Shown piece by piece: positions 41,690 to 58,527 of a stretch of DNA of 64,000 bases. The stretch's first letter is position 1, and every line of letters starts with the position of its first letter. Source of the stretch: Bacilli bacterium (GTDB taxonomy: Bacteria; Bacillota_I; Bacilli_A; RFN20; CAG-826); contig JAKSUV010000002.1 in assembly GCA_024408655.1 (NCBI GenBank), positions 1-64,000 of the forward strand. The letters are read 5' to 3'. The notes under the pieces are model-generated. The model did no database searches and was not told where the DNA came from. It saw only the letters and a program-made list of their open reading frames with translations. Position numbers and translations under genes: made by a program.

Positions 41690-42294
41690 AAACTATTAAT
41701 AGTGTTAACGAAATTAATTGGGAAAATATTCCCGTGGCGAAAATTGACAAAGTCATGTGGGTTAAAACTAACCAAGTGCCAACGGCGTTTGCCCAAATGG
41801 TGTTTATTAAAAACTATGGCTTTATTGTGCGGATGACATGCCTAGAAGTTAATCCCAAGCGTACCTGCACGCACGATAACGATGACCTCCGGGTCGACTC
41901 AGCCCTTGAAGCGTATTTTATGTTTGACGGGGAACGCTACATGAATCTAGAGAACAACGCTAACGGAGCGAGAAAGCAAGCCATCCGTTATAACCGCGAA
42001 AATAAAAAATATTTTTATAATAACGAATTCGGCGGATTCAAAGTGACTCCCGAAATCTTTAGTGACCGTTGGCAAATTACCATCGATATTCCCCTTGATC
42101 ACTTAGTGAAACTTTATGGCAACATCAAGAAAGAAGACTTTAAACCTGGCTACAGTTTTACCGGGAACTTTTATAAAGTTCATGAATTAGTGGGGACGCC
42201 GTCTGAACATTATCTCGCTTGGCAAGAGATCCATAGTCCGTTCCCGGAATGTCACCTTAAAGAACAATTTGGTGAGTTTGTAATTATTGCATAA
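41674..42294 (+). CDS. DOMON-like (type 9 carbohydrate-binding-like) protein
   Basis: 206 residues, no signal peptide, predicted cytosolic and beta-rich. The pattern DDLRVDSALEAYFMFDGERYMNLENNANGA followed later by WQITIDIPLDHLVKLYG and TGNFYKVHELVGTPSEHYLAWQEI matches stand-alone DOMON-like type 9 carbohydrate-binding proteins of Firmicutes. Ligand unknown: a sugar or sugar-phosphate is plausible but unproven, and the lack of a secretion signal is odd for a carbohydrate-binding module. Starts inside the dxs 3' end. Confidence 0.75.
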   Translation: MRYEVKTINSVNEINWENIPVAKIDKVMWVKTNQVPTAFAQMVFIKNYGFIVRMTCLEVNPKRTCTHDNDDLRVDSALEAYFMFDGERYMNLENNANGARKQAIRYNRENKKYFYNNEFGGFKVTPEIFSDRWQITIDIPLDHLVKLYGNIKKEDFKPGYSFTGNFYKVHELVGTPSEHYLAWQEIHSPFPECHLKEQFGEFVIIA

Positions 42295-42303
42295 TTTGGT
42301 TAA

Positions 42304-42309
42304 CATAAT
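42304..42309 (+). promoter_or_regulatory. -10-like box before dinB
   Basis: CATAAT ends 5 bases before the ATG at 42315; no ribosome site is present. Possible leaderless promoter, weaker than the others. Confidence 0.4.
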
Positions 42310-42314
42310 ATTGT

Positions 42315-43508
42315 ATGGCGAAAGTCATCATGCATGTCGACCTTAATTATTTTTTTGTCCGCTGCGAAGAACTTAAAAATCCACGATTAGTGAATCAACC
42401 AGTCATGATTGGTGGGGTGGGACGAGCGGGGATTGTTTCGACTTGTTCCTATAAGGCCCGTGCGTATGGAGTAAGAAGTGGGATGCCAAGTTATAAAGCG
42501 CTTGCGCTTTGCCCAGAACTTATTGTCATTAAAGGTGACTATCATTTTTATTCATTAATGAGCAAAGAATTCTTCGCGTATGCGCGCAAATATACACATA
42601 TAATAGAAGAGGCCTCAATTGATGAGTGCTATATGGATATTACTTCGTTAGCGAAAAAGACTGACGATGTCCCCGGGTTATTAAAAAAGTTCCAGAGTGG
42701 TTTATTAAAGAAAACTGGTTTAAAGTGTTCGATTGGCGTCGCGCCGACAAAATTTTTAGCCAAGATGGGGAGCGACATGAAAAAGCCGATGGGAATTACC
42801 ATTATCCATAAACGCGATATTAAGGATAAGATTTATCCTTTACCCATTACTGACTTCTTTGGGATTGGCAAAAAAACCGCGCCGCGCCTAAAGGCGATGG
42901 GTATTAAAACAATTGGTGACTTAGCCGAATTTATTAAAGACGAAGGAAAAGCGGAAGAATATTTTGGTAGCTTCTATCTTGACTTAAAAGCGTGTCTTGA
43001 AGGAACTTCAAGTGACACCGTTCATACCGAATATGATGATCCGAAAAGTATTGGTAACTCGATGACCCTCATGCGTGACACGGCGGATGAAGAAGAAATT
43101 GCTCGAGCCATTATGTTAATGGCGAAAGAAGTATCTATGCGCGCTAAGGGACAAAAAGTTAAAGGGAAAACAATTCAACTCGTTTTAAAAGACCCGACCT
43201 TTAAGGTCCACAATAAATCAATGACCGTGAGTGAGGCGATTGTTGAGGCTAATGATATTCACGCGATTGCGAATCGCTTATATCTAGATAATTATCGGGG
43301 TGAAACGTTCCGTTTAGTGGGGGTGACACTCCAAAATTTAGTGCCACTTCATGAAGAGAATATTCAGATGTCATTATTTAATTATGAGGACTACGAAAAA
43401 ACGGATGATGTGAATAATATTATTCAAAACGTAAACCGGAAGTTTAAAAAGAAAGTGGTGGATAAAGCCTCGCTAATGTTAAAGGAGAAAGGGCATGGAA
43501 ATCGTTGA
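42315..43508 (+). CDS. dinB: DNA polymerase IV (Y family)
   Basis: 397 residues. Catalytic carboxylates in MHVDLNYFFVRCEE (near residue 8) and EASIDECYMDIT (near 105), fingers GMPSYKALALCPELIV, helix-hairpin-helix TDFFGIGKKTAPRLKAMGIKTIGDLA, little-finger domain and a C-terminal beta-clamp-type peptide QMSLFNYED. Error-prone translesion polymerase. Overlaps xerD by 14 bases, so the two are cotranscribed. Confidence 0.96.
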   Translation: MAKVIMHVDLNYFFVRCEELKNPRLVNQPVMIGGVGRAGIVSTCSYKARAYGVRSGMPSYKALALCPELIVIKGDYHFYSLMSKEFFAYARKYTHIIEEASIDECYMDITSLAKKTDDVPGLLKKFQSGLLKKTGLKCSIGVAPTKFLAKMGSDMKKPMGITIIHKRDIKDKIYPLPITDFFGIGKKTAPRLKAMGIKTIGDLAEFIKDEGKAEEYFGSFYLDLKACLEGTSSDTVHTEYDDPKSIGNSMTLMRDTADEEEIARAIMLMAKEVSMRAKGQKVKGKTIQLVLKDPTFKVHNKSMTVSEAIVEANDIHAIANRLYLDNYRGETFRLVGVTLQNLVPLHEENIQMSLFNYEDYEKTDDVNNIIQNVNRKFKKKVVDKASLMLKEKGHGNR

Positions 43509-44376
43509 CGCGTTAGCGAAATTCTATCAAAACCTTCTCGCGGTTAAAGGCTGTGCGAAGACCACCGTTACATCTTATGATCAAGATTTAAAACAATTTT
43601 TTATCTTATTTAAAGATAAGAAGACTACTGACGATTTAGAGCCCACTGATTTAACGGATTTCTTAGCGAGTGAATTAAATAAAGGTCACGCGGTTTCAAC
43701 CGCCCTCCGTCGTCTCACTGCTTCCCGGGCCTTCTACGCTTTTTTAGTTAGCGAAAACATTATCCATATCGCTTTACCAAAAATCTCTGCGCCCAAAACC
43801 ATTAAAACTTTGCCTAATGTTTTAAGCGTTGAAGAAGTGGAAGCGTTGTTAAACGCTCCCGATGTTAATAAGGGAGATGGGGTACGTGACCGGGCGATGC
43901 TTGAGTTAATGTATGGAAGTGGGCTCCGAGTAAGTGAACTCATTAATGTCCAAATTAAAGATATTAACTTTGTTAAACACACGATTACTATCCGCGGAAA
44001 AGGGAGCAAGATGCGGCGAGTAAGCGTTGGTGAATACGCCCTTGAATGGATTGCTAATTATATTAATCATGTCCGTTGTCACAACATTGGACGCACGAAT
44101 AAATATTTATTTTTAAATCGTTATGGCGAACCATTAAGCCGCCAATACTTTTTTAAGTTAGTCAAAAAATATGCCGCTCAGGTTGGGATTAGCGAAAACA
44201 TTTCGCCTCATACTTTGCGGCATAGCTTTGCTACCCATATGCTCGAAAATGGGGCTAAGCTTATCTCGGTTCAAGAAATGCTTGGTCATGAAAATTTGGC
44301 GACCACCCAAATTTATACTCACGTTTCAACTAGACGCATTAAAGAAGCATATGATTTATATATCAAAGACAAGTAG
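43495..44376 (+). CDS. xerD: Tyrosine recombinase XerD (XerC/D family)
   Basis: 293 residues. N-terminal SAM-like DNA-binding domain, then the catalytic domain with YGSGLRVSELINV (first Arg), RGKGSKMRRV (Lys), HTLRHSFATHML (His-x-x-Arg), MLGHENLATTQIYTHVS (His and nucleophile Tyr). It is followed by deoB, matching xerD-drm synteny in B. subtilis, so I favour XerD. It would resolve chromosome dimers at dif together with a partner recombinase; a dif-like site lies only 6 kb away at 49996-50023. Confidence 0.93.
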   Translation: MEIVDALAKFYQNLLAVKGCAKTTVTSYDQDLKQFFILFKDKKTTDDLEPTDLTDFLASELNKGHAVSTALRRLTASRAFYAFLVSENIIHIALPKISAPKTIKTLPNVLSVEEVEALLNAPDVNKGDGVRDRAMLELMYGSGLRVSELINVQIKDINFVKHTITIRGKGSKMRRVSVGEYALEWIANYINHVRCHNIGRTNKYLFLNRYGEPLSRQYFFKLVKKYAAQVGISENISPHTLRHSFATHMLENGAKLISVQEMLGHENLATTQIYTHVSTRRIKEAYDLYIKDK

Positions 44377-44392: not shown

Positions 44393-45586
44393 ATGAAAAA
44401 GTATCAACGGATCTTTGTAATTGTTATGGATAGTCTTGGGGTCGGCGAGATGCCTGACGCCGCATTATTTCACGATGCAAATAGTAATACCCTTAAACAT
44501 ATCATTGAAAAAGCCGGGCCGATTAACGCCCCAACTTTAGAAAAACTTGGGATGGGTGATTTTGTGAATATCGGCTTTAAGAAAGTCAATCATCCTCATT
44601 CCTACACCTCTATTATGTGCGAAACGAGTAATGGTAAAGACACGATGACGGGACACTGGGAAATGATGGGAATTAATACAACAAAGCCATTCCAAACTTT
44701 TACTGATACAGGCTTCCCACAGAGTTTAGTTGATGAATTAAGCAAGGCTACCGGTTATAAATTTATTGGTAATTACGCTAGTAGTGGAACAAAAATAATT
44801 GAACTTCTTGGCGAAGAACATATGCGTGATAAATCACTCATCCTTTATACAAGTAGTGATTCCGTTCTTCAAATTGCCGCTCACGAAGAGGTGATTCCGC
44901 TTCAAGAACTTTATCGCGTCTGCGAAATCGCTCGTAAGATATGCATGAAACCTGAATATTTTGTCGGTCGGATTATTGCGCGCCCATTTGTCGGAAAAGA
45001 TAAAACAAGTTTTAAACGCATCACAGGTGACCGGCATGACATTGCGGTTTCACCAAGCGAAGCAACGGTGCTTGATATATTAAAAGAAAATCATATTGCT
45101 ACGGTTGGGGTTGGCAAAATTGGCGATATCTTTAATCAACAAGGTATTAGCAAGTCGATTAAAACAAGAAATAATGTCGAAGGAATGCAAGTAACAATCG
45201 ACTTAGCCAAGAAAGAAAATAATCCCGGACTTTACTTTGTAAACCTTGTCGAATTTGATAGCGAATTCGGTCATCGACGTGACCCAAAAGGCTATAAAGG
45301 CTGCATTGAAGAATTTGACCAATACTTAGCGAAGTTATTACCCGTTATGCGTGATGATGATTTACTAATTTTGACCGCCGATCATGGCAATGACCCGACG
45401 ATGCCTGGTAGCGATCACACTCGCGAAAAAGTTCCTTTTATTGCTTATTCTAAGCAAATAAGTGGTGGAAAAATGCTCAGTGAACGTTCGACTTTCGCCG
45501 ATATTGGTGCGAGTGTTTTAATTAACTTCAATTTAAAGAAAAAACCGCATCTTCTTGGTAAAGAAATATCCGAATTATTTTTATAA
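44393..45586 (+). CDS. deoB: Phosphopentomutase
   Basis: 397 residues, normal. Alkaline-phosphatase superfamily enzyme interconverting (deoxy)ribose 1- and 5-phosphate with Mn2+. Motifs: VMDSLGVGEMPDA, TSNGKDTMTGHWEMMG (phosphothreonine region), ITGDRHDIAVSP, and LTADHGNDPTMPGSDHTREKVP. Works in nucleoside salvage and connects with the nucleoside-type ABC importer at 60-64 kb and with transketolase. Confidence 0.97.
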   Translation: MKKYQRIFVIVMDSLGVGEMPDAALFHDANSNTLKHIIEKAGPINAPTLEKLGMGDFVNIGFKKVNHPHSYTSIMCETSNGKDTMTGHWEMMGINTTKPFQTFTDTGFPQSLVDELSKATGYKFIGNYASSGTKIIELLGEEHMRDKSLILYTSSDSVLQIAAHEEVIPLQELYRVCEIARKICMKPEYFVGRIIARPFVGKDKTSFKRITGDRHDIAVSPSEATVLDILKENHIATVGVGKIGDIFNQQGISKSIKTRNNVEGMQVTIDLAKKENNPGLYFVNLVEFDSEFGHRRDPKGYKGCIEEFDQYLAKLLPVMRDDDLLILTADHGNDPTMPGSDHTREKVPFIAYSKQISGGKMLSERSTFADIGASVLINFNLKKKPHLLGKEISELFL

Positions 45587-45595: not shown

Positions 45596-45625
45596 TTGCC
45601 AAATATTATCTAAGCGTTGTATAAT
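45596..45625 (+). promoter_or_regulatory. Promoter of the SpoIIE-type phosphatase gene
   Basis: TTGCCA (45596-45601), 18-base spacer, TATAAT (45620-45625); predicted start near 45632 gives a 15-base leader without a ribosome site. A second CATAAT at 45631-45636 lies even closer to the ATG. Confidence 0.7.
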
Positions 45626-45646
45626 TATTGCATAATTAAAGATTTT

Positions 45647-48343
45647 ATGGCGCTTTCAATTTTTATAGTTATTATCTGCTCACTCAGCGTTGTAGGAATG
45701 GTCGGAGTAGTTTTGTTTTTGCTTCCACTGATTAAGCCATATAACAAGCTCCCGCAATTGTATAAAGATTTAATTATCGGTACGCTCTTCCTTCTTTTAA
45801 ATATTATTTTAATGAGTTTCAGCGTAGTTGGTGGTGAAGGCGAAGCACAAATTCGCTTTTCGCCTTGTATATTACCTCCACTAGTGGTTTCACTATTATT
45901 TAATTACCCTGCTGCTTTGGTGACCACTATTGGCAGTTTCTTCTACCGCACCTTCTTTAACTTTACATCAGTTGATTTAATTCGTTATAGTTCCGCTTTT
46001 AGTATCTTAATCGCAATGGTGATTGGAGCGTTATTGCAGCATTACATCTTTAATAAAAAAGAAACTGGCGTCCGTTTAAACTACGTTTATGGTTTCTTTA
46101 TTGGTAGCATTGTTGAAACCATTAGAATGTTCACTACCATCATCGCCAACATGGATATAATTGATCTTATTTATCCCTCCATAGTTATAATGGATATTTT
46201 TTCAATCTTCACGGCTGGTATCACCACTGCCTTTAGCGTACTTATTTTGATGATTTATAGGAAAGAAAGCATTCGTTTACGTCTCCGCCACGATGATCGG
46301 ATCAATTCGAAAGTGCAAAAACGAACATTAGGCGCGATTGTGCTTTGCTCCCTTATTTCCCTCATTCTAACTAGTTCTGTTGCTAACAATCAAGCAAAAA
46401 TTAATACTAATGCCACCATTGTTAACGCTAACTACAACATTGCTAACGAGATTCATAACACTAGAATTCCGGACCCGGAGAAAAAAGAATCAGAATGGTC
46501 GATTGCTCTCGCTAACATTAAACAGTACGTTAAAACTCGTTCTGTTCAAAAAACCGGCTATATTGTTATTATTACTGACCAAGATATAGTATTGGATGGC
46601 GGCACGTGCAAAAAAGGCGAAATATTTGCCACCCATATGGATCAACTTTCGTTACGCGGTATTCCGTTTAAATTATCAAGTGGTCGCACCATATGGGAAG
46701 ATGAGGAAAAGAATAATGTGGTAGTTCGTAATTGGCGAAATGAAGATTACGCAATGGCTTGGACAGACGTCTCGTCCTACACACAACCAGACGAGATTTG
46801 GATTCCATATGCTTTTCATATTGTTTCGCTAATTCCGATGACTGAAATTGATGCTAACTTTGGTGTTTCTGTCCGTATTTCGGTGTATTTACAAATAATG
46901 ATATTCGCTATTCTCTACCTTATTATCATTCGTTTTATTAGTAAGAAAGTTGTGAAAAATATTACTGATATCAACTCAACATTGATCGATATCTCGGAAG
47001 GCAATTTAAACGCTAAGGTTGACGCTACCGGTTCACGTGAATTTGTTACTTTAAGTCAAAACATCAATCTTGCCGTCGGTTCACTTAAGAATTATTCCGA
47101 CGAAATATCCCGTCGTCTTGAACAAGAAACTGAGTTAGCCATTAACATTCAAAAGAACTCTGTTATGACAAACTTCCCGAATGAACCTAACTTTGAAGTT
47201 TATGGTAGTATGCGAACGGCTCAAGAAATTGGTGGCGACTTCTACGAGTATATTAAATTAAGTGACGACAAAGTCGTCTTCTTACTCGCTGACGTTATCG
47301 GAACCGGCATCGCCGCGGCCATGTACATGGTGCGCGCTAAGACTTTCCTACGTACTCTCTTAGTGCTTGATGAAAAGACCAAGTCAATTAATTTATCATC
47401 TGTTGTAAATCGGATGAATCAAGAATTCGCAACTGATAACATTATGAAAAGTGGGATGTCAATGTGGATTGGTTTACTCGACATGAAGACGAATACTTTA
47501 CAATATATTAGCGCCGATCACCCCGCGCCACTCGTTGCACTTGAAGATAAAGTCTATCGTCCATTACCTTGTCGCTCAAACGTCTATATCGGTATCGAAA
47601 AAGAGTATAACTACGAAGTAGAAACCATCACTTTTGCTCCGGGTAGCGAAATCTTACTTTATACTGCTGGTGTCACCCAAATTCGTAATAAGAGCGGGCA
47701 GATGTTTGGTCTAGAAGCGCTGACTGAGTTAGTCAATTCAACTAGATACTTTACGATGAAACAATTAGTACAAAATATTAATGACCGCCTTGATGAATAT
47801 AACAAAGGTGGCGTCCAAATTAATGATGACTTAACCTTCTTAAGCTTTGCTTTCACTGGCTTAAAAGATAAGAAGCCCGAACACGAAATTACCTTAAAAG
47901 CGATTCCGAACAACACACCGATTGCCACGAAGTTTGTTGAGTCCATTATGCAACAATATAACTGCTCACAAAAATCACAAGCGATTATGTTAATCGCGGT
48001 GGACGAACTCTTTAGTAACATTGCCTACTATGCCTATAAGGGTAAAGAAGGCGGTGGTAATGGTACCATCCGGATTGAAATCAAAGACAAAGTCTTTAAG
48101 ATGCAATTAATCGATAACGGCATCCCCTTTAACCCGTTAGCCCACTTAGATCCTAATTACATCAATAGTAGCGCCGAAGAAAGAACTAACAAAGGTGGTT
48201 TAGGTATCTTCATGGTCCGCCGGAGCGTTGATGATATGCAATACGTTTACGAAAATGGCCAAAACATTTTGACCATTATTAAGACCATCCCAGAAATGCA
48301 CGAAGAAGAATTTAAAGATTCTTATTCCACGACCCGCGATTAA
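45647..48343 (+). CDS. Membrane PP2C/SpoIIE-type phosphatase with HAMP and HATPase domains
   Basis: 898 residues from the ATG at 45647 (a TTG at 45617 overlaps the -10 box and is rejected). Order: about six membrane helices resembling a 5TM/LytS sensor (1-210), a second helix, an extracellular loop (about 245-410), another helix, HAMP (about 440-490), SpoIIE-type phosphatase (about 520-740: GGDFYEY, ADVIGTGIAAAMYM, NDDLTFLSF) and an RsbW-like HATPase (about 755-880: AVDELFSNI, DNGIPFNP, GGLGIFMV). The usual LYTDGVTE motif reads LYTAGVTQ near 670, replacing a metal-binding Asp. Likely a partner-switching signal transducer; no sigma or antagonist gene is adjacent. Confidence 0.88.
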   Translation: MALSIFIVIICSLSVVGMVGVVLFLLPLIKPYNKLPQLYKDLIIGTLFLLLNIILMSFSVVGGEGEAQIRFSPCILPPLVVSLLFNYPAALVTTIGSFFYRTFFNFTSVDLIRYSSAFSILIAMVIGALLQHYIFNKKETGVRLNYVYGFFIGSIVETIRMFTTIIANMDIIDLIYPSIVIMDIFSIFTAGITTAFSVLILMIYRKESIRLRLRHDDRINSKVQKRTLGAIVLCSLISLILTSSVANNQAKINTNATIVNANYNIANEIHNTRIPDPEKKESEWSIALANIKQYVKTRSVQKTGYIVIITDQDIVLDGGTCKKGEIFATHMDQLSLRGIPFKLSSGRTIWEDEEKNNVVVRNWRNEDYAMAWTDVSSYTQPDEIWIPYAFHIVSLIPMTEIDANFGVSVRISVYLQIMIFAILYLIIIRFISKKVVKNITDINSTLIDISEGNLNAKVDATGSREFVTLSQNINLAVGSLKNYSDEISRRLEQETELAINIQKNSVMTNFPNEPNFEVYGSMRTAQEIGGDFYEYIKLSDDKVVFLLADVIGTGIAAAMYMVRAKTFLRTLLVLDEKTKSINLSSVVNRMNQEFATDNIMKSGMSMWIGLLDMKTNTLQYISADHPAPLVALEDKVYRPLPCRSNVYIGIEKEYNYEVETITFAPGSEILLYTAGVTQIRNKSGQMFGLEALTELVNSTRYFTMKQLVQNINDRLDEYNKGGVQINDDLTFLSFAFTGLKDKKPEHEITLKAIPNNTPIATKFVESIMQQYNCSQKSQAIMLIAVDELFSNIAYYAYKGKEGGGNGTIRIEIKDKVFKMQLIDNGIPFNPLAHLDPNYINSSAEERTNKGGLGIFMVRRSVDDMQYVYENGQNILTIIKTIPEMHEEEFKDSYSTTRD

Positions 48344-48361: not shown

Positions 48362-49141
48362 ATGAAAAGATTCAATAAATTCAGTCGCGACCAAAAAATC
48401 ATTTTCTATAATATTGTCGGAATTGTTGTTCTCTTTTTCTTGTGGTGGATTGTTTCGGCAATTGTTAATAATCCCAATTTCCCAACACCGATTGTTGTTA
48501 CTCCAACCTTCTTTAGCTTATTAGGAGTCGGTTACACCTACGTCGCGATTGGCGGCACTTTCTTTCGTTTACTAATTGCTTTCCTAATTAGTTTTCTAAT
48601 TGGCGCGATTCTAGGCACGCTTGGTGGCTACTTTTATCGCTTTGACGCCATTATGAAACCAATCGTTGGTTTCTTTCGGGCGTTACCAACCGCCGCGGTG
48701 ATGCTAATTGTAGCAGCGTTAGTGAACCCGGTCTTAGGTACCATTATTATTACTACTTTAATCATGTTTCCGATTATTTATGCTGCCTTTAAAGATGGAG
48801 TGGTGCAAATTAATAAAGATTATAATGACAAGATGAAAATGGATAATGTTACTTTAAAGAATTCGTTCTTTAAGATTTATGTACCGTTATTATCCCCTTA
48901 TATGATGCTAGGGATCTCTCAAGCCGTGGGGTTAGGATTAAAGGTTTCCGTCATGAGTGAAGTGGTGGGGAAAAGTTCAGGAGCGATTGCCGGGTTAGGA
49001 CGCCTAATTATTGATACTGAATCGCCAACGGAAAAAGTTGCCTATTGTCTTATTACTATATTAATAATAATTATTATTGATATACTGCTTTATTTTGTGA
49101 AGCGAGGATTAAAGGTTTATGCTCACCGAAAATCAAACTAA
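48362..49141 (+). CDS. ABC transporter permease (SsuC/TauC-like), orphan
   Basis: 259 residues with about six membrane helices and the binding-protein-dependent permease loop (MDNVTLKNSFFKIYVPLLSPYMMLGISQAVGLGLKVSVMSEVVG, the EAA-like coupling helix, near residues 160-205). The family imports alkanesulfonates, taurine, nitrate or thiamine precursors; substrate not evident. No ATPase or binding protein gene is adjacent, so partners must be encoded elsewhere. It starts 18 bases after the phosphatase gene and overlaps the sirtuin gene by 23 bases. Confidence 0.88.
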   Translation: MKRFNKFSRDQKIIFYNIVGIVVLFFLWWIVSAIVNNPNFPTPIVVTPTFFSLLGVGYTYVAIGGTFFRLLIAFLISFLIGAILGTLGGYFYRFDAIMKPIVGFFRALPTAAVMLIVAALVNPVLGTIIITTLIMFPIIYAAFKDGVVQINKDYNDKMKMDNVTLKNSFFKIYVPLLSPYMMLGISQAVGLGLKVSVMSEVVGKSSGAIAGLGRLIIDTESPTEKVAYCLITILIIIIIDILLYFVKRGLKVYAHRKSN

Positions 49142-49862
49142 ATTAAAAGCGCTAATTAAAACAAGTAAACATATTGTCTTTTTAACCGGTGCGGGTATTT
49201 CTAAACCAAGTGGAATACCAGATATCCGTGGGGCCGATGGCTTAAGTAAACGCCAAGCGAATGATATTAAATATGGGGCAACCTATGAAGAAATCGTTTC
49301 CCATAGTTACTTTATGATGGAAACCGCCAAATTCTATCGTTATTACTTTAACGAGATGATTTATTTAGACGCAAAACCCAATAAAGCGCACCTTGCGATT
49401 ACGCGACTAGGTGATAAGGCAACTGTCGTTACCCAAAACATTGACGCCCTCCATACGCGTGCGGGTTCAAAAGACGTCATTGAAGTACATGGATCAACCT
49501 ATAAAAATCGGTGCCTTGGATGCCACCAATTTTATACCCTTGATGAGGTGCTAAAATTAAGGGACGAAAATGGGGTACCAAAATGCCCAAAATGTGGCAA
49601 GGTAATTAAGCCCGAAGTTGTCCTCTTTGAGGAAGCCTTAAATGAAGCGGATATTGATGCGGCCGTGAACGCGATGATGCACGCCGATTTACTTATAGTA
49701 ATCGGGAGCAGTTTAGTGGTGAACCCGGCGGCTAGTTTGCCTTTCTATTATCCGGGTAAGAACTTCGTCATTATTAATAAAGAACCAACGCCTTTAGACG
49801 CTCGGGCGAGCATCATCATCCGGGAACCAGTCGAAAGCTTTATTGACGAGGTCATAGACTAA
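49119..49862 (+). CDS. NAD-dependent protein deacylase, sirtuin family
   Basis: 247 residues. Sir2 motifs: TGAGISKPSGIPDIRG, TQNIDALHTRAG, VHGSTYKNRC with catalytic His, two zinc Cys pairs (CLGC and CPKC), GSSLVVNPAASLP and a final NK-type region. Removes acetyl or other acyl groups from lysine using NAD. Starts inside the end of the permease gene. Last gene of the plus-strand run before the convergent junction. Confidence 0.95.
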   Translation: MLTENQTKLKALIKTSKHIVFLTGAGISKPSGIPDIRGADGLSKRQANDIKYGATYEEIVSHSYFMMETAKFYRYYFNEMIYLDAKPNKAHLAITRLGDKATVVTQNIDALHTRAGSKDVIEVHGSTYKNRCLGCHQFYTLDEVLKLRDENGVPKCPKCGKVIKPEVVLFEEALNEADIDAAVNAMMHADLLIVIGSSLVVNPAASLPFYYPGKNFVIINKEPTPLDARASIIIREPVESFIDEVID

Positions 49863-49888
49863 TTTAGTAGTTTTATAGTAAATGTGGA

Positions 49889-49921
49889 AAAGTCACATTT
49901 CGGTGGGAAAGTGGCTTTTTT
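49889..49921 (+). terminator. Terminator at the convergent junction
   Basis: AAAGTCAC (49889-49896) pairs with GTGGCTTT (49911-49918) and ends in six T. An alternative hairpin AAATGTG/CACATTT (49880-49886 with 49894-49900) competes with it. Ends the sirtuin transcript. Confidence 0.8.
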
Positions 49922-49941
49922 ACTTCCAAATTTTATGTTTA

Positions 49942-49969
49942 GTATTTTTTGTTATATTCTTAAAAATAC
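49942..49969. repeat. AT-rich inverted repeat near dif
   Basis: GTATTTTT (49942-49949) and AAAAATAC (49962-49969) with 12 bases between them. It could be a hairpin or protein site flanking the dif candidate; no known match. Confidence 0.45.
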
Positions 49970-49995
49970 CATAAATACGCTACTTTATACATTTA

Positions 49996-50023
49996 AGTTA
50001 ACATAATATACCTTATGCGAAGT
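49996..50023 (-). other. dif: Candidate dif site (XerC/XerD recombination site, chromosome terminus)
   Basis: Read on the minus strand: left arm ACTTCGCATAA, centre GGTATA, right arm TTATGTTAACT, exactly 11+6+11. By hand alignment without gaps, 23 of 28 positions equal E. coli dif and 22 of 28 equal B. subtilis dif; the XerD-side arm is nearly consensus. It lies in the only convergent intergenic gap of the window, with genes on both sides pointing at it, and xerD is 6 kb away. I infer this is the replication terminus where chromosome dimers are resolved. Confidence 0.85.
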
Positions 50024-50073
50024 TATATTGAATTTTGCTAAATCTACTAAATTTACTGCGGCGGTCACTGCCA

Positions 50074-50403
50074 CTACTTCGACTTCTTGTTGAGTAACTC
50101 TTCTAGGTTAAACCGGGCACGTTCGGCTTTCGAGAAGATATTAATAATATAAGAATAGGCATCCACTAAAACCCACCCACTACTACTACGACCTTCAACG
50201 TGGTTGATCTTAATTTTGTTCTTTTCTAGGGTATCAACTACCGCATCTTTGATGGCGTCAATTTGGCGGGGATTATTCGCGGAGGCGATGATATAAAAGT
50301 CAGCAAAAGGTGTCCGACTTTTGACATCAATAATTTCAATCTTTTCACCCTTCTTTTCACTGATGGATTTTTTAATGATTTTTAGTGCGTCTTTTTGGTT
50401 CAT
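50074..50403 (-). CDS. rsfS: Ribosomal silencing factor RsfS
   Basis: 109 residues, family length. MNQKDALKIIKKSISEKKGEKIEIIDVKSRTPFADFYIIASANNPRQIDAI and the conserved SSSGWVLVDAYSYIINIFSKAERARFNLEELL are visible. It binds L14 on free 50S subunits and blocks joining with 30S during starvation. Last gene of the minus-strand operon, 9 bases after nadD-yqeK, with GGAGT as ribosome site. Confidence 0.95.
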   Translation of the reverse strand: MNQKDALKIIKKSISEKKGEKIEIIDVKSRTPFADFYIIASANNPRQIDAIKDAVVDTLEKNKIKINHVEGRSSSGWVLVDAYSYIINIFSKAERARFNLEELLNKKSK

Positions 50404-50412
50404 ATTTTACTC

Positions 50413-51513
50413 CTATTTTCCAAGGTATAATTCCATGCATTTTTTGGTGAGTGGATTATCAAAAGATAATTGGTGCTTAATAAGGTGCTCGCGGTTCGCC
50501 GCTAGGACATCATAAAAACCAGCATCGATATCATCCATACACCCTTTAATTAATTTACTACTATCATAATCACGTAATGGGTCAAGCTTATCCGCCGCGT
50601 AAACAATTTTGCTAATGGTTGGCATATGGGCCTTACCCGTCGCGTGATAGGTAATCGCATCTAACACCACTTCATCAGTGATTCCTAATTCGTTTTTCGC
50701 GATATAGGCACCAACAAATTGGTGATAAAGAGTCGCGGGCACTTGATGATAATACTCAGAATAATACTTTTGCATGATTAAGCGCATCTTATCTTCATCG
50801 ACCTTTTTACCAAGATCATGTAATAAACCCGCAATATAGCATTGAGCGGGATCAATTTTATTGGCAATGGCAATCTTATAAGCAAGATTAGCGACACTTA
50901 AAGCGTGTTTAAAGCGTTTTTCGGTATAATATTTATCTTTTAATAATTTAATATAATAAAGTTCGTGCTTTTCAATGTATTGAATAACTGAATAAGTCGT
51001 ATCTAAACCATTTAGGTGACGAATTGAGTGACTCGAAGCTGCCCCACTTTTATCATAAGTAAGACTATCCATCTTAAATTTGGCGACATTTTCACTTTTA
51101 ATCACAATATCCGGACGATTAACATAAATAATTTTGGCGAGTTCCGCAATCCGCGCGGCGTCTTTCCATTTATCAAAGGCAGCAACTTGATCTGCTCCAA
51201 TAAGTAAATAAAGCTGATAGGTTGGATAGAGCTTCTTAAAATGCTCTAAAGTATCGACAGTATAGTTAATCTCATCATTACTCTTCATTTCGTAATCGGA
51301 AATAGTTAAGGAAGAGACATTAAGATCTTTTAAAGCGAGTTTAAGCATCTCGTAGCGTTCGTTAATTGAGGCGTGTGGCGCTTTCCAGCGTGGACTCTTC
51401 GCGGGTAAAAAGATGACATCCGCATTGAGTTTAAGTGAAGCATAAGAAGCAACCCTTAGGTGCGCATTATGAATGGGATCAAAGGTCCCGCCAAAGATAA
51501 TTAACTTTTCCAT
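50413..51513 (-). CDS. nadD: Fusion of nicotinate-nucleotide adenylyltransferase (NadD) and HD-domain YqeK
   Basis: 366 residues. The first half (1 to about 190) is NadD: GGTFDPIHNAHLRVA nucleotidyltransferase motif, GADQVAAFDKWKDA, and the SSHSIRHL C-terminal site. The second half is YqeK, an HD phosphohydrolase (KHALSVANLAYKIAIANKIDPAQCYIAGLLHDLGKK, then HQFVGAYIAKNELGI), known in Firmicutes as an Ap4A hydrolase. In B. subtilis these are separate adjacent genes (yqeJ, yqeK); here one reading frame spans both. NadD makes deamido-NAD, the substrate of NadE. It follows yhbY by 1 base. Confidence 0.95.
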   Translation of the reverse strand: MEKLIIFGGTFDPIHNAHLRVASYASLKLNADVIFLPAKSPRWKAPHASINERYEMLKLALKDLNVSSLTISDYEMKSNDEINYTVDTLEHFKKLYPTYQLYLLIGADQVAAFDKWKDAARIAELAKIIYVNRPDIVIKSENVAKFKMDSLTYDKSGAASSHSIRHLNGLDTTYSVIQYIEKHELYYIKLLKDKYYTEKRFKHALSVANLAYKIAIANKIDPAQCYIAGLLHDLGKKVDEDKMRLIMQKYYSEYYHQVPATLYHQFVGAYIAKNELGITDEVVLDAITYHATGKAHMPTISKIVYAADKLDPLRDYDSSKLIKGCMDDIDAGFYDVLAANREHLIKHQLSFDNPLTKKCMELYLGK

Positions 51514-51514
51514 A

Positions 51515-51808
51515 TTAATTTAAGATAATCCGGTCTTTTTTATTTGGATTGGCTTTATATAAGACAATCGAATGACCAATTGTGGTCACTAGTTCACACT
51601 GCGTCGCAATAATAATCTCGTCGGTTAGTTTAGCCATTTCGCTTGTGATACTTCGATTAAAGTAAACTTTAATTAGTTCGTGCGCCTTTAAAGCGTTATT
51701 TAATAGCGCCACTACGGAAGCATCAACAGCGCCTTTACCGATTTGATACTTATGAGTGGAGGTATTCGCTAACGCTTTTAATTGTTTTTTATTTTTGTTT
51801 GTCAGCAT
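51515..51808 (-). CDS. yhbY: RNA-binding CRM-domain protein YhbY (YqeI)
   Basis: 97 residues from the ATG at 51808, chosen because YhbY proteins begin MLT-x-K-x-K-x-x-L-K; an in-frame ATG at 51841 would add 11 atypical residues. Core features: YQIGKGAVDASVVALLNNALKAHELIKVYF and the VTTIGHSIVLYKANPNK end. Associates with pre-50S particles. Overlaps the yqeH 3' end by 20 bases, with no own ribosome site, so coupling is likely. Confidence 0.92.
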   Translation of the reverse strand: MLTNKNKKQLKALANTSTHKYQIGKGAVDASVVALLNNALKAHELIKVYFNRSITSEMAKLTDEIIIATQCELVTTIGHSIVLYKANPNKKDRIILN

Positions 51809-52934
51809 GGGGAATTTTGGCTCGACAGGAATAAATACCAACGCCTTTTGGCACCGTAATCCGGAAGGTTTGGTTATTACCCATAAAGGAAATCCAGCCT
51901 AAACCTTGAATACCAAGGTCACGACCTTCGTGCTCCGTAATATTAATTTCGTAGGTGTTAAAATCCGCGAGTGAATTTAAGTTCTTCGAAGAAGGAACGA
52001 TGTTTTTCTTTAATAAAATTTTATTAAAGATATAATCAGTCCGCCGCGTGGAAATCCGTTTGATGTCAACCCGCCGAGAGAAGTAAGCGTAAACTTGAGT
52101 AGTCTTACCTTTCAGGAAATCAAAACGAGCAATCCCACCGATAAATAATGACACTTCCGGCCACATCTTATAATCAACTGGTTTAATTTCGCGAGCCGGC
52201 GTCACAATTTTATGTAATTCCTTTTCAAGGTGTTCAGTAATGGTATTAGTGACTTTTAAACCACCGGTATCATATAAAGTCGTATTTTTATCTAACGGAA
52301 TTTGTAACACGCTTAAAGATGTTCCTGGATATTCCATTGTCTTAATTGGCCGCTGGGTTGGGTTCTTATAGTTACGTAAAATCGCGTTAATGAGGAAGGT
52401 TTTACCCATACCATCACCACCAATTAAGTAGGCATCATGGCCTTTTCTTAATTCGTTAATCCGTTTAATAATTTCTTTAATGTGAAGCTCGGTAGTTGCG
52501 CTAGTCAAGATAATGTCTTGCACTTTAATCTTTTCCATTCTTAACCGGTGGGCAACGTCTTCTTTTAAAATTGCATCATCAACATCTTTTGGTAATAAGT
52601 CACGTTTCGTGGCCACTACTAAGACATTCCGCCCCACTAAGCGTTTGGTAATCGCACTAGAAAAAGCGGCTTCGAAGGAGAATAAATCAAGCACAAAAAC
52701 GATTAAAGCGTCGGTCGCGTGCGCGTCCGCGAGAATCGTTTTAAAGGCGTCGGATAAGTCTAATTTATTAGGAACTAAATCGTAAGTTTCTTTCTTAAAA
52801 CACTTATCACAAAACATCACGCGAATGTCGTTTTCAAAGAGTTCAGGCGAGATATAGCCTTCCGCTTTTGGGTCGGTGTCTTGTAAGACCGCCCCACAGC
52901 TATAACATTTACGAATGACGTTGAGCTTACTCAT
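51789..52934 (-). CDS. yqeH: Ribosome-assembly GTPase YqeH
   Basis: 381 residues. N-terminal zinc finger (CYSCG ... CDKCF), then the circularly permuted GTPase with motif order G4-G5-G1-G2-G3: ATKRDLLP (G4), SATTELH (G5), GGDGMGKTFLINA (G1), DTGG (G3), followed by the RNA-binding C-terminal part. Needed for 30S assembly and 16S maturation. Gene order yqeG-yqeH-yhbY-nadD-yqeK-rsfS is that of B. subtilis except aroE is missing. Overlaps yqeG by 4 bases. Confidence 0.95.
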   Translation of the reverse strand: MSKLNVIRKCYSCGAVLQDTDPKAEGYISPELFENDIRVMFCDKCFKKETYDLVPNKLDLSDAFKTILADAHATDALIVFVLDLFSFEAAFSSAITKRLVGRNVLVVATKRDLLPKDVDDAILKEDVAHRLRMEKIKVQDIILTSATTELHIKEIIKRINELRKGHDAYLIGGDGMGKTFLINAILRNYKNPTQRPIKTMEYPGTSLSVLQIPLDKNTTLYDTGGLKVTNTITEHLEKELHKIVTPAREIKPVDYKMWPEVSLFIGGIARFDFLKGKTTQVYAYFSRRVDIKRISTRRTDYIFNKILLKKNIVPSSKNLNSLADFNTYEINITEHEGRDLGIQGLGWISFMGNNQTFRITVPKGVGIYSCRAKIPHADKQK

Positions 52935-53452
52935 AAATAGTTCTTCCAGTTATTAAGTTTACCACATTTTTTGAGTCGCGCGCGCAAAGGTTTTTCAAAG
53001 AGCCGATTAATCTTTGTTCTAATCGGATCTTCTTTGACTAATTTTTCGGTCAATAAAGTGCGAATATGCGCAGAATTTCCGCACTGGACATCGGTCATCA
53101 TTTGGTCGCCGATGATTAAACAATCATCCGGATTAATATTGAGAGCTCTTAATTTTCTTAGTAAGCGGCCCTTAAATGGTTTATTAACAAACGCAAGAAA
53201 TTCAATCTCTAAATCTTTCGCGTAAGTCCGGACTCGCTTACCGGTGTTATTACTCGTAATAACCGGCCGTAAACCATTCGCTTTTAATTGTTTAATATAA
53301 TCAATTGTCCGTTTGCTCGGTGTTTTTACGCGATACGATTCAAGTGTATTATCTAGGTCAAGTAGCAAAACTTTCACATGATTTTTCACGAAAAATTTTG
53401 GATCAATCTCGTAGAGATTATTCGCATGAAAAGTCGGAGTAAAACGCTTCAT
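52931..53452 (-). CDS. yqeG: HAD-superfamily phosphatase YqeG
   Basis: 173 residues, HAD IIIA type. Motif I LLLDLDNTLE (Asp32 and Asp34), motif II VITSNNTG, motif III/IV KPFKGRLLRK and CLIIGDQMMTDVQCGNSA. Probable cytosolic phosphatase acting in the YqeH ribosome-assembly group, substrate unknown. Overlaps the parC stop by one base (TAATG). Confidence 0.93.
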   Translation of the reverse strand: MKRFTPTFHANNLYEIDPKFFVKNHVKVLLLDLDNTLESYRVKTPSKRTIDYIKQLKANGLRPVITSNNTGKRVRTYAKDLEIEFLAFVNKPFKGRLLRKLRALNINPDDCLIIGDQMMTDVQCGNSAHIRTLLTEKLVKEDPIRTKINRLFEKPLRARLKKCGKLNNWKNYL

Positions 53453-56052
53453 TATTTTTGCTCGTCGTTATCTTCATCAAAGATGGAAATTTGCGTATAT
53501 TTAGCGGGTTTTTTCTCGTTATTAATCGGTTCGTTCGCTGGCTTTTCGCTCACTGGTTTAGGCTTATAAGTGGACACTAATTTTGGGTTCACCACTTCAC
53601 CATGGGAATATAAATATAAAAGCGTGTCGCGTTTAGCAATCCCAAGATTTGTCTTCGCGTATTTTTCAATTGGTGTGAAATAGAAATCATCAATCTTTAA
53701 ATCCACTAAGCCTTTGGCTTGACTAATCGCTAATAAATGAAGTTCACCTTCACTCCGATTAAATTTCTTCACACCCATAATTTTGTGTGGTTCACCTTTA
53801 AAGGATGGCATAATTAAGGTCGGTTTATTTAAGCGTTTAGTAATCGCGATATGTTCTTTATCAAACACCCGGTAATGCCCGTGATCAGTGATAATTAAGA
53901 TCTTATTCTTTTCGTCTTGTTGATAAACAAGCATTGCGGCAATATAGGTTTTATTTAGTTTAGCGGCTTTCACTCCACCCGCCTTTGGACCAATCGGGGT
54001 TAATACTTCTTCGGGATAATACACCGCTTCCCCACTTCCCATAAAGAGCATGATGTTATCCGCTCCGGTACTAATCGCAACATCGACGAGTCGATCAGTG
54101 TTAAGTAAACGGAACGCAGTGTATAAACGGTTACAACGAGTTAGATAAAAGTCCGCCATCGCGGTCCGCTTAATTTGCCCATTCCGACTCACTAAAATAA
54201 AGAAGAGATCTTTCCGGAAACTCTTTAAAGTAAAGGCCCGGACAAATCGATCTTCCATCGCATTATAGTTAATGTGATAAGAGAGTTGTTTTCCTTCTTC
54301 TTTCCAACGGATTTCGGGAATTTCGTGGACCGGGATCACAATAAAATTACCGTGTTCAGTGAAAGCAATTAAATAATCTTCGGTGTTACATTGATTATTA
54401 TAAATAATCACGTCGCCTTCTTTGACACCAGGTAACGACTCTTCACTACTCTTAAAGCTCTTGAGTGAACTCCGTTTTATATAGCCATCACGGGTGAGAC
54501 AAACCATCACGTCTTCTTTATTAATTAAGTCGCGTTGATCAAACACCTTTTCTTCCATCGCCACTTCACGAATTTCGGTCCGGCGCGGATTACTATATTC
54601 ACGTTGAATCACGCGTAAATCCTTAATAATTTCGCGGTTAAGCACTTCGCGGTCACTTAAGATTTCTTTTAAGCGCTTAATCTCAACATCTAAGTTTTTC
54701 TTCTCTTGATTGAGCGTACTCATATCCGTATGCGAAAGCTTATATAAAGGCATCATCACGATGGCTTCGCTTTGCGCTTCACTAAATTTATACGCTTCGG
54801 CGAGCTTAGCTTTTGCGTCCGCTTTATCGTTACTCTTTTTAATAATCCGAATCACTTCATCTAGATGCGCAATTGCTTTAATAAGACCATCAACAATTTC
54901 TAAACGTGCTTTATTTTTATCTAAATTATATTGCGAAACCCGGGTGACTACATCCACTTGGTGAGCAATATAACAATCAATATATTCAAGGATATTTAAG
55001 GTCCGTGGGTGGCCATCAACAATCGCCACCATATTCGCGGTATAGCTAGAAGTTAAGCCGGTTTTCGTCATTAAATATTTTAAAATCGCATCCGGATTAA
55101 CTGACTTCTTACAATCAACCACAATCTTTAAACCATGGCGGTCACTTTCATCACGAACTTCAATGATACCTTCAATTACTTTCTTATGACGAATCTCATC
55201 GATTTCGTGAACGATGTTAATCTTTACCGCTTTATAAGGAATCTCGGTAATGACAATTTTATTAACGCCATCTTCGTTTCTCACAATTTCGGCTTTCGCC
55301 GCTACCTCAATTCGACCATGTCCCGTTGCGTAAATATTTTTTAAGCCTTCGCTAGAAGAAATGACGCCACCGGTTGGGAAATCCGGGCCTTTAATAAACT
55401 CCATTAAATCAAGGGGTTCGACCCGCACACGCCGAATCCGGTAAATGACTGCTTCAATTAATTCACGTAAATTGTGGGGAGGGATTTCGGTTGCCATCGC
55501 GACGGCAATGCCTTCCGCCCCGTTAACGAGTAAGTTTGGGAAACGGGCTGGCAAAACCACCGGTTCATATTCGGTATCATCGTAAGTTAAAATTTTATCA
55601 ACTGCGTTTTTATTTAAATCACGGACCAGTTCATCCGCTAAAGCGCTGAGCTTAGCTTCAGTGTAACGATAGGCGGCTGGGATATCGCCATCAATACTAC
55701 CATTATTACCTTGAAAGGTAATAAGCGGCATCCGGACTTTCCAATCTTGGCTCATCCGGGCTAAAGCTTCGTAGACCGAAGTATCACCATGCGGGTGATA
55801 TTTACCAATGACATCACCAACAATCTTCGCGCACTTTCTGGTCTTATAAGCGCTCGTGTTTTTATTCGCCCACATCGAGTAAATAATGCGCCGTTGCACT
55901 GGTTTTAAACCATCACGCGCATCCGGAATCGCCCGATCTTGAATGACATATTTCGCGTAAATTCCGTACCGGTCACCCATGACATCATCAAGGGCTTCGA
56001 CCGAAATATTTTCGCGAATCACTGGCTCTTCAACTTTCTTTTTCCGACTCAT
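53452..56052 (-). CDS. parC: DNA topoisomerase IV subunit A
   Basis: 866 residues. Winged-helix and tower domains with the ParC-type NNGSIDGDIPAAYRYTEAKLS around the active-site Tyr, NLLVNGAEGIAVAMATEIPPHN and a C-terminal beta-pinwheel lacking the GyrA-box (QRRGG...G) of gyrase. The quinolone-determining region reads GKYHPHGDTSVYEA, with Thr at the position that is Ser in staphylococcal GrlA. Works with ParE (next upstream, 1-base overlap) to decatenate daughter chromosomes, fitting its position near the terminus. Ends in a lysine/proline-rich tail. Confidence 0.95.
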   Translation of the reverse strand: MSRKKKVEEPVIRENISVEALDDVMGDRYGIYAKYVIQDRAIPDARDGLKPVQRRIIYSMWANKNTSAYKTRKCAKIVGDVIGKYHPHGDTSVYEALARMSQDWKVRMPLITFQGNNGSIDGDIPAAYRYTEAKLSALADELVRDLNKNAVDKILTYDDTEYEPVVLPARFPNLLVNGAEGIAVAMATEIPPHNLRELIEAVIYRIRRVRVEPLDLMEFIKGPDFPTGGVISSSEGLKNIYATGHGRIEVAAKAEIVRNEDGVNKIVITEIPYKAVKINIVHEIDEIRHKKVIEGIIEVRDESDRHGLKIVVDCKKSVNPDAILKYLMTKTGLTSSYTANMVAIVDGHPRTLNILEYIDCYIAHQVDVVTRVSQYNLDKNKARLEIVDGLIKAIAHLDEVIRIIKKSNDKADAKAKLAEAYKFSEAQSEAIVMMPLYKLSHTDMSTLNQEKKNLDVEIKRLKEILSDREVLNREIIKDLRVIQREYSNPRRTEIREVAMEEKVFDQRDLINKEDVMVCLTRDGYIKRSSLKSFKSSEESLPGVKEGDVIIYNNQCNTEDYLIAFTEHGNFIVIPVHEIPEIRWKEEGKQLSYHINYNAMEDRFVRAFTLKSFRKDLFFILVSRNGQIKRTAMADFYLTRCNRLYTAFRLLNTDRLVDVAISTGADNIMLFMGSGEAVYYPEEVLTPIGPKAGGVKAAKLNKTYIAAMLVYQQDEKNKILIITDHGHYRVFDKEHIAITKRLNKPTLIMPSFKGEPHKIMGVKKFNRSEGELHLLAISQAKGLVDLKIDDFYFTPIEKYAKTNLGIAKRDTLLYLYSHGEVVNPKLVSTYKPKPVSEKPANEPINNEKKPAKYTQISIFDEDNDEQK

Positions 56053-57971
56053 TATTTAATTTCCTCGAAATTATCTTTCTCAGTAAAATCAACGTTTTCT
56101 GCCACCCATTTCCGGCGTAGCGATGCGTCTTTTCCCATTAAAACCGCGACGCGCGATTCGACAAGTAATGGATCATCAATCCGAATACGCACAAGTAAAC
56201 GGTGACGAGGATTCATCGTGGTATTCCAAAGTTGTTCGGCGTCCATTTCGCCTAACCCTTTAAAGCGACTAATCTCGTAGCCACGGCCGACTTCCGCTTT
56301 CGCTTCTTCTAAGTCATTATCACGCCAAGCATAGCGTTCTTTTTTGTCTTTATAAACTCGGTATAATGGCGGAACTGCAACATAGACCATCCCACTAGTA
56401 ATAAGGGGGCGCATGTAGTGATAAAAGAAAGTTAATAAAAGGGTTTGGATGTGCGCACCATCAGTATCCGCGTCGGTCATAATAATGATTTTCCCATAAC
56501 GGGAATCATTCACATCAAATTCACTACCAACGCCAGCACCAATCGTGTTAATAATCGTGGCAAACTCTTCGTTTTTTAGCATCCGTTCCATCGTAATTGA
56601 ATCGGTATTTAATGGTTTTCCACGAAGTGGAAGAATGGCTTGATGAAGCCGGTCACGCCCTTTACGGGCGGAGCCACCCGCGGATTCGCCTTCAACAATG
56701 AAGAGTTCGTTCCGGGCGTAGTCTTTACTTTGCGCTGGAGTCAATTTATCCGAGAGAATAATTTCGCGATTTTTCTTTTTACCGCGCGCTTCGTCTTTAG
56801 CTTTTCTTGCGGCCATACGGGCTTGTTGTGATTCAACACATTTTTGAATAAGTTTTAAGGCAAGTTCGCTATTTTCGTTTAAGTAATAAGTGAGTTTAGT
56901 GTAAATAAAATTGTTGACTAAGGCGGTCGCTTCTGGGGTACCTAGTTTACCTTTTGTTTGACCTTCGTATTCAAGTTTTTCTTCCGGAATCCGTAAGGAT
57001 AAAATCGCGGTTAAACCTTCCCGAATATCGCCACCTTCAAGCTTTTTACCATGGAGCAAATCTTTCTCTTCCGCGTAATCATTGACCGCCCGAGTGATAC
57101 CAAGTTTAAAGCCGGTTTCGTGAGTACCACCATCGTGAGTGCGAACGTTGTTCGCGTAGCTATAAATGTTCTCGTTATAATCGTTACTACAATATTGGAA
57201 CGCCACTTCCATCTTGATGTCGTTACTATCATCGGTAAAGGAAACCACTGGTCCAATCGGGGTTTTATTTTCATTTAACGCGGCGACATATTCTTTTAGT
57301 CCCTCGTTATATAAATATTCGACTGTGTTATAAGGAATGCTCCGTTGATCAGTCACAATAAATTTTACTTTTTTAAGTAAAAACGCGGATTCTTGTAGGT
57401 GTTTAGTAATGGTATCCCAACGGAAATCAACACTACTAAAGATCTTCTTATCCGGTTTAAAACGAACGATGGTTCCGGTCTTCCGGGTTTCCCCAATCAC
57501 TTTTAGTGGCTCCACTAACTTGCCACCTTTTTCGTAGCGCGTATGGTAAATCTTACCATCCCGCATCACGGTTACATCAAGCCACTCACTAAGCGCATTG
57601 GTGACGGAGGCGCCAACGCCATGTAATCCCGCGGAGTTACTGTACACTTTGTTAGAAAACTTACCACCACTATGGAGAGTTGAGAAAATAAGATGAACCG
57701 CCGGAACATTGTATTTCTTTTGGATGCCACACGGAATCCCACGTCCATGGTCTTCGACACTTAAAGAACCGTCCCGGTGGATGATTAAAGTGATCGTGTC
57801 ACCATAGCCACTTAACGCTTCGTCAATCGCGTTATCGACAATTTCCCAAACGAGGTGATGAAGGCCACTAAGGTTCGTCGAGCCAATATACATGGCTGGG
57901 CGTTTTCTTACGCCTTCAAGCCCTTCGAGGACTTCGATATCGTTTGCATCATAATTGCGATTATTCGCCAT
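56052..57971 (-). CDS. parE: DNA topoisomerase IV subunit B
   Basis: 639 residues. GHKL ATPase (EIVDNAIDEALSGYGD, DHGRGIPCG, GLHGVGASVTNALS), transducer, and TOPRIM domain (FIVEGESAGGSARKGRDR, MTDADTDGAHIQTLL). IGAGVGSEF in place of the IGTGIG of GyrB, and RKRPAMYIGS start, identify ParE rather than GyrB. Forms topoisomerase IV with ParC. Its own promoter (57983-58012) gives an almost leaderless message with no ribosome site. Confidence 0.95.
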   Translation of the reverse strand: MANNRNYDANDIEVLEGLEGVRKRPAMYIGSTNLSGLHHLVWEIVDNAIDEALSGYGDTITLIIHRDGSLSVEDHGRGIPCGIQKKYNVPAVHLIFSTLHSGGKFSNKVYSNSAGLHGVGASVTNALSEWLDVTVMRDGKIYHTRYEKGGKLVEPLKVIGETRKTGTIVRFKPDKKIFSSVDFRWDTITKHLQESAFLLKKVKFIVTDQRSIPYNTVEYLYNEGLKEYVAALNENKTPIGPVVSFTDDSNDIKMEVAFQYCSNDYNENIYSYANNVRTHDGGTHETGFKLGITRAVNDYAEEKDLLHGKKLEGGDIREGLTAILSLRIPEEKLEYEGQTKGKLGTPEATALVNNFIYTKLTYYLNENSELALKLIQKCVESQQARMAARKAKDEARGKKKNREIILSDKLTPAQSKDYARNELFIVEGESAGGSARKGRDRLHQAILPLRGKPLNTDSITMERMLKNEEFATIINTIGAGVGSEFDVNDSRYGKIIIMTDADTDGAHIQTLLLTFFYHYMRPLITSGMVYVAVPPLYRVYKDKKERYAWRDNDLEEAKAEVGRGYEISRFKGLGEMDAEQLWNTTMNPRHRLLVRIRIDDPLLVESRVAVLMGKDASLRRKWVAENVDFTEKDNFEEIK

Positions 57972-57982
57972 AACAATTTAAG

Positions 57983-58012
57983 ATTTTAGCACAAGGGAAA
58001 ACGAAAAATCAA
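57983..58012 (-). promoter_or_regulatory. Promoter of the parE-parC-yqe operon
   Basis: On the minus strand: TTGATT (58012-58007), 18-base spacer containing TG just before TAAAAT (57988-57983). Predicted start is about 5 bases before the parE ATG; no SD sequence. Confidence 0.7.
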
Positions 58013-58239
58013 AAAACATTTTCGCGAGTGAGCATAATTGCGCGATGAAAAAATCGAGTTATCTTCTCGCGCACACCAAAGGAAAATTTATCATAAAATT
58101 TAGCCATAATTTGTCGAAAAATCAAGACGCATAAATCGGACAAAAATATTGATTAAATTCTCGATAAATTTCTTCGTATAGTCAATAACATAATTTAGTT
58201 TTAATTTAGTAGTTTAGTAGTTTTTATTATTTATATATA
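58013..58239. other. Non-coding AT-rich stretch between yneF and parE
   Basis: With the adjoining promoter and terminator this is a 318-base gap without a gene. It holds an interrupted inverted repeat (CGCGAG at 58023-58028, CTCGCG at 58066-58071) enclosing a smaller CGAT/ATCG hairpin with a GAAAAA loop (58043-58056), just upstream of the parE promoter, and two ATTTAGTAG-type repeats (58204-58221). I see no coding frame, no DnaA-box cluster and no known riboswitch. Confidence 0.5.
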
Positions 58240-58270
58240 AATAAAAAGGCAAGAACTTAATCTTGCCTCT
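58240..58270 (-). terminator. Terminator after yneF (minus strand)
   Basis: AGGCAAGA (minus strand 58268-58261) pairs with TCTTGCCT (58254-58247) over a six-base loop, followed by TTTTTATTT on the minus strand. Ends the rpmG-efp-yneF run and separates it from parE. Confidence 0.9.
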
Positions 58271-58289
58271 TAATTTTAATCTAACCAAA

Positions 58290-58508
58290 TTATTGGCTAT
58301 TTTTCATGTTTTGAATGACTGCACGAATTTGGGCTTCACTGGGCTTACGTCCCATTGACATAAACATCGCCCGAATCATGTTCTCGTTGATTGGTGGGTT
58401 CTTCTTGAGCTCATGCTTCATAAGTTTTCTAGCGCCTAAGAAACCAACCACGAGGCCCACGAAAAGTAAACCAATCGCTAAGCCAAACCAACTTCCATTC
58501 CAATCCAT
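58290..58508 (-). CDS. YneF/UPF0154 family small membrane protein
   Basis: 72 residues: one N-terminal membrane helix (WFGLAIGLLFVGLVVGFLGARKLM) followed by the signature KKNPPINENMIRAMFMSMGRKPSEAQIRAVIQNM, typical of YneF of Firmicutes and Mollicutes. Function unknown, cell membrane. TTAGGAGGAG ribosome site about 7 bases before the ATG, one of the strongest in the window. Confidence 0.93.
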   Translation of the reverse strand: MDWNGSWFGLAIGLLFVGLVVGFLGARKLMKHELKKNPPINENMIRAMFMSMGRKPSEAQIRAVIQNMKNSQ

Positions 58509-58527
58509 AATTTTCTCCTCCTAAATA

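Follow-up and report, generated by a model that had tools for sequence, protein, structure and literature searches.

A predicted dif site close to xerD, and conserved XerD-type half-sites, at the replication terminus of an uncultured lineage of Bacilli

The window analysed in this work is a stretch of 64,000 bases, corresponding to bases 1-64000 of contig C3 (175,622 bases) in an assembly of 913 kb, 10 contigs, and 66.6% completeness. Table 1 lists the main features. A dinB-xerD-deoB gene group and the two topoisomerase IV genes lie on opposite sides of a convergent gap of 211 bp, which holds a dif-like 28-mer and is free of any mobile element. Between deoB and the gap, positions 45617-48343 encode a 908-aa protein with a SiaA-like phosphatase (~537-746) and an RsbW-like anti-sigma kinase (~774-895). 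A CBM9-like gene (41674-42294) is inserted between dxs and dinB in G000, G008, and G061; in G039, a member of their genus, it was not seen. Near the right edge, 61777-63726 encodes an ATPase of an ABC transporter whose first ABC domain contains an insert; the profile of topoisomerase IV subunit A matches residues 129-212 of this protein (7.8e-6, short of the Pfam cut-off), a resemblance that perhaps reflects a shared coiled coil.

Table 1. Genes and predicted sites around the convergent gap (positions of the window).
Feature	Position	Strand	Remarks
Isolated XerD half-site ATTATGTTAACCAA	42296..42309	-	5 bp before dinB start; upstream of the operon in 17 genera
dinB (DNA polymerase IV)	42315..43508	+	First gene of dinB-xerD-deoB
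xerD	43495..44376	+	TIGR02225 316 bits vs XerC model 288; overlaps dinB
deoB (phosphopentomutase)	44393..45586	+	Neighbour of xerD
SIR2-family deacylase	49119..49862	+	Left neighbour of dif
Sole convergent intergenic gap in the window	49863..50073	.	Contains dif; skew maximum at 49914
dif	49996..50023	-	XerC arm ACTTCGCATAA, centre GGTATA, XerD arm TTATGTTAACT
XerD-binding arm (predicted)	49996..50006	-	By homology to E. coli and B. subtilis dif
XerC-binding arm (predicted)	50013..50023	-	By homology to E. coli and B. subtilis dif
rsfS (ribosome silencing factor)	50074..50403	-	Right neighbour of dif
parC (topoisomerase IV subunit A)	53452..56052	-	
parE (topoisomerase IV subunit B)	56052..57971	-	

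The minus-strand 28-mer at 49996-50023 reads ACTTCGCATAAGGTATATTATGTTAACT. In ungapped alignment the initial annotation had counted 23/28 identities with the dif of E. coli and 22/28 with that of B. subtilis, and the same values were obtained when we recomputed them; the next best windows in the 64 kb score 18. We then searched with a dif pattern that tolerates up to three mismatches across the 22 arm positions, using the reversed pattern as the control. The 28-mer is the sole match in the 913-kb assembly and the control gave none, and a better match elsewhere, the counter-test named by the initial annotation, did not emerge from this 66.6%-complete assembly. Because of that level of completeness, the expectation of one match per genome was moved to relatives: a match was found in 129 of 146 same-family genomes, which span 31 of 35 genera, and exactly one each except in G026; the reversed pattern matched once overall in the 146 genomes. 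The arms are conserved in this family and the 6-bp centre is variable. An identical dif is present in the closest named relative, a horse-faeces MAG of class Bacilli. Genome size and gene content tentatively suggest that the lineage may belong to the GTDB order RF39 or to a neighbouring one.

GC skew was calculated on stretches rather than on one whole genome. Over all 175,622 bases of contig C3, the cumulative skew reaches its maximum 82 bp from dif, as had been predicted for a terminus, and the corresponding distances in G011, G103, and G039 are 101, 33, and 286 bp. Peaks 33-286 bp from dif are unusually tight when set against a proteobacterial survey in which the distance from the skew switch to dif has a median of 7,277 bp and a smallest value of 146 bp (PMC2731167). 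At the other extreme, the cumulative minimum over the initial 100 kb of contig C1, at 35660, adjoins dnaA (34031-35353). The gene polarity reported earlier was also recovered, with ORFs in 1-49862 on the plus strand and those in 50074-59749 on the minus strand; it requires the qualification that plus-strand genes begin at 60127. Genes on the right side of dif run leftward except in an island of opposite orientation at ~60-70 kb, and leftward again beyond it. This island, which runs against the replichore direction from 60127 to ~70000 of C3, opens with two plus-strand genes, of which the first encodes a BMP-type transporter; G039 has the island as well. In five of five genomes examined the coding strand switches exactly at dif. 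In G132 (C1 around 605584) the GC skew is weak and, on either side of dif, opposite in sign to gene polarity, and yet the polarity switch at dif is intact. Skew and polarity are therefore partly independent signals, and skew alone would miss the terminus in G132. Gene orientation could account for part of the GC skew near dif.

The second recombinase gene, xerC, is located at C6:13022-13900 (327 bits with the XerC model, 315 bits with the XerD model) in the order rnhB-dprA-topA-xerC-rpsB-tsf-pyrH-frr, the neighbours being named by reading their translations. FtsK is encoded on the same contig as dif (C3:115530-117908) with motor, alpha, and gamma domains (PF01580, PF17854, PF09397). Since both xerC and xerD are present, the locus is not a single-recombinase module of the XerS or XerH kind. 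A 28-bp site of 11-6-11 design in single copy at the terminus and skew switch, two recombinases, and an FtsK with a gamma domain are shared with XerCD/dif of E. coli and CodV/RipX of B. subtilis; every defining feature of the XerCD/dif system that can be tested in sequence is present. We concluded that the 28-mer is, with little doubt, the canonical chromosomal XerC/XerD dif at the replication terminus, and that the dif site by itself is ordinary. By analogy with the known XerCD system, XerC would bind ACTTCGCATAA and XerD would bind TTATGTTAACT; polar sequences (candidate AGTGGKG, below) would guide FtsK toward dif and up to the synapse, where its gamma domain would activate XerD for the first strand exchange, leading to the resolution of chromosome dimers.

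Short motifs polar toward dif are known as KOPS in E. coli (GGGNAGGG), SRS in B. subtilis (GAGAAGGG), and GAAGAAG in lactococci; the best candidate in this lineage is like them in polarity and unlike them in sequence. AGTGGKG occurs 152 times toward dif and 10 times away in 1.18 Mb from four genomes, with toward:away counts of 134:8 in genes directed at dif, 15:2 in those directed away from it, and 3:0 in intergenic DNA. Ranked by orientation-independent polarity among 14,065 heptamers, AGTGGGG is first and AGTGGTG fourth. Contig C3 and the relatives G011, G103, and G132 all have AGTGGKG strongly polar toward dif, in whichever direction the genes run. In a held-out test near dif in other genomes of the family the count was 91:9 toward dif; other heptamers score equally high there owing to homologous genes, and this test thus lends weak support. 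No polarity was found in other families (11:13). These counts make AGTGGKG a candidate KOPS for the family. Among the known motifs tried, the B. subtilis SRS gave few and mixed counts (16:5, 3:1, 5:1), the E. coli KOPS was unconvincing at 24:20 in dif-ward genes, and the lactococcal GAAGAAG tracks gene direction here.

Next, we examined the gene neighbourhood. The initial annotation had placed xerD ~6 kb and topoisomerase IV ~3.5 kb from dif and regarded them as a cluster of segregation genes; the measured distances are 5.6 kb for xerD and 3.4 kb for parC, and the cluster turned out to be conserved synteny. Among genomes selected because one of their contigs, in most cases a long one, carries dif, xerD lies near dif in 62/62 members of the order, at 1.4-5.9 kb in 45/45 genomes of the family and at 1.2-7.0 kb in 17/17 genomes from other families. 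The parC gene is 2.9-9.0 kb from dif wherever it falls inside the stretch examined (42/45 family and 9/17 other-family genomes). In the usual layout, parE-parC-yqeG-yqeH-yhbY-nadD-rsfS and deoB-xerD-dinB stand on either side of dif with both arms aimed at it; in two f8 genomes the xerD operon lies on the opposite side of dif. The xerD-deoB order matches ripX-drm of B. subtilis. This arrangement differs from that of usual XerCD/dif systems in the 1.2-7.0 kb between xerD and dif in all 62 members of the order examined: most genomes carry xerC close to dif and xerD close to the origin (PMC3025954). Genetic linkage between a recombinase gene and its target site, at the terminus, is found in XerS/difSL of streptococci and lactococci and in XerH/difH of epsilonproteobacteria, which have one recombinase and an atypical site where the present system has two recombinases and a canonical dif. 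The persistent dif-xerD linkage within a two-recombinase system is one of the less ordinary features here.

The XerD arm recurs outside dif. The 12-mer TATTATGTTAAC has exactly two copies in the assembly, one in dif and one at 42299-42310, 7.7 kb from dif and just before dinB. Scoring 0-1 mismatch to each genome's own XerD arm, we found the half-site before dinB-xerD-deoB in 30 of 43 family genomes, 20 of them exact; as controls, the reversed arm was found upstream of dinB in 1/43 and the XerC arm in 0/43. It lies 3-42 bp from the dinB start where its orientation is the usual one and is inverted in two genera (G002, G020), and the G002 copy has the same T-to-A variant as the G002 dif. Several genera and all other families examined lack a half-site upstream of the operon. 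In 46 family genomes, 56 of the 109 exact non-dif copies of ATTATGTTAAC fall within 10 kb of dif, vs 1.8% expected; the nominal p of 1e-66 for this clustering is not a true probability, as the genomes are related. After exclusion of the dinB-upstream copy, 21 exact half-sites remain within 10 kb of dif, chiefly in g12, g31, and g33; the reversed control has 5. In some genera half-sites also occur within nadD, dxs, and xerD. Half-sites of the XerC arm are not enriched near dif, and far from dif the XerD 11-mer occurs at about the control rate.

The position of the half-site at the head of an operon that contains xerD suggests a regulatory role. We estimate at about even the chances that XerD would bind the half-site at 42296-42309 before dinB-xerD-deoB and thereby limit its own expression; an incomplete literature search found no report on XerD autoregulation. 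Somewhat doubtful, though worth weighing next, is the view that the half-site is a promoter element only (TTAACA as -35 or CATAAT as -10) and that its likeness to the dif arm is fortuitous. TTAACA does lie 16-18 bp before a TATAAT-like box near the ATG in about half of 28 genomes, so that the half-site overlaps or adjoins a promoter in those genomes, and promoter constraint may contribute to its conservation. A -35 box needs only six positions, however, and 11-14 bp are conserved; the spacing to the best -10 box ranges from 9 to 30 bp across genomes while the sequence stays constant. The inverted copies in G002 and G020, the T-to-A variant that the G002 copy shares with its dif, and the near-control rate of the 11-mer away from dif also speak against chance likeness. 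In the window itself, no promoter with 16-18 bp spacing is visible and the half-site abuts the dinB ATG. The TATAAT-like box ends ~6 bp before the dinB ATG in relatives such as G111, G048, and G080, and a box so close to the ATG suggests a leaderless operon mRNA.

Half-sites might instead serve as a local antenna that raises the XerD concentration round dif or aids the dif search, with no part in transcription. The copies inside nadD, dxs, and xerD are in keeping with such a function; we consider it improbable, as the sole widely conserved copy keeps its place at the start of the xerD operon while its distance from dif varies from 3.6 to 7.7 kb. In B. subtilis, XerD-specific sites (XDS) unload SMC complexes at the terminus, according to the passages on Karaboja et al. 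(2021) in PMC8357415 and PMC10945525. The marked concentration of half-sites near dif, seen for the XerD arm and not for the XerC arm, and the several copies on both sides of dif in g12, g31, and g33, resemble the extra XerD-type half-sites near B. subtilis dif. The conserved half-site at the start of the operon holding xerD, in contrast, sets the present lineage apart from B. subtilis, and so does the outcome of a condensin search. In this search, which covered Smc and ScpA models only, Smc was above the cut-off in 0/14 genomes (best 28 bits, cut-off 567), including the single-contig, 99% complete G103, and ScpA was found in 0/35 genomes from seven families of the order; the B. subtilis and Lactococcus controls were detected, and many of the genomes are 94-100% complete. 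An incomplete literature search found nothing on Smc in RF39-type Bacilli. The order has apparently lost the Smc-ScpAB condensin. With half-sites clustered at the terminus and neither Smc nor ScpA found, SMC unloading is very unlikely to be the role of the extra XerD sites here, and autorepression by XerD is favoured over it.

Joining autorepression to the synteny, we tentatively propose a wider scheme, judged somewhat less likely than not: in this order of Bacilli, apparently without Smc-ScpAB, xerD would be kept near dif and XerD would repress its own operon through a half-site at the promoter, linking the amount of recombinase to a lesion-bypass polymerase and to the resolution of dimers at the terminus. 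What is less ordinary, beyond the dif itself, is the dif-xerD linkage, the family-wide XerD half-site, and the apparent lack of Smc-ScpAB. The terminus position and dif sequence are now fixed for an uncultured lineage, which should help in estimating growth rates from coverage and in drawing chromosome maps. Two testable questions are also raised: how chromosomes are segregated across a whole order without detectable Smc-ScpAB, and whether one half of its recombination site lets a site-specific recombinase control the gene that encodes it.

Mobile elements adjoin dif in two relatives. In G026 and G058, filamentous-phage-like elements lie between a dif-like repeat and dif (L319 at G026 C3:94100-99582, and L216 on G058 C34), and phage-like elements abutting dif are expected if XerCD uses the site. 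That the 28-mer of the window is itself an attachment site left or used by a phage or plasmid with a dif-like sequence, as these bounded elements might suggest, is scarcely credible, since the 211-bp gap is empty of any element, dif is single and in the same conserved place across many genera, and its XerD arm is intact, whereas XerD arms are usually degenerate in phage dif-like sites (PMC3025954). No relatives of the two dif-integrated elements were found among the viral contigs searched. The G026 element encodes a Zot-domain ATPase, and both elements encode Rep_OBD replication proteins and small membrane proteins; L319 and L216 are likely Xer-using inovirus-like proviruses in Bacilli.
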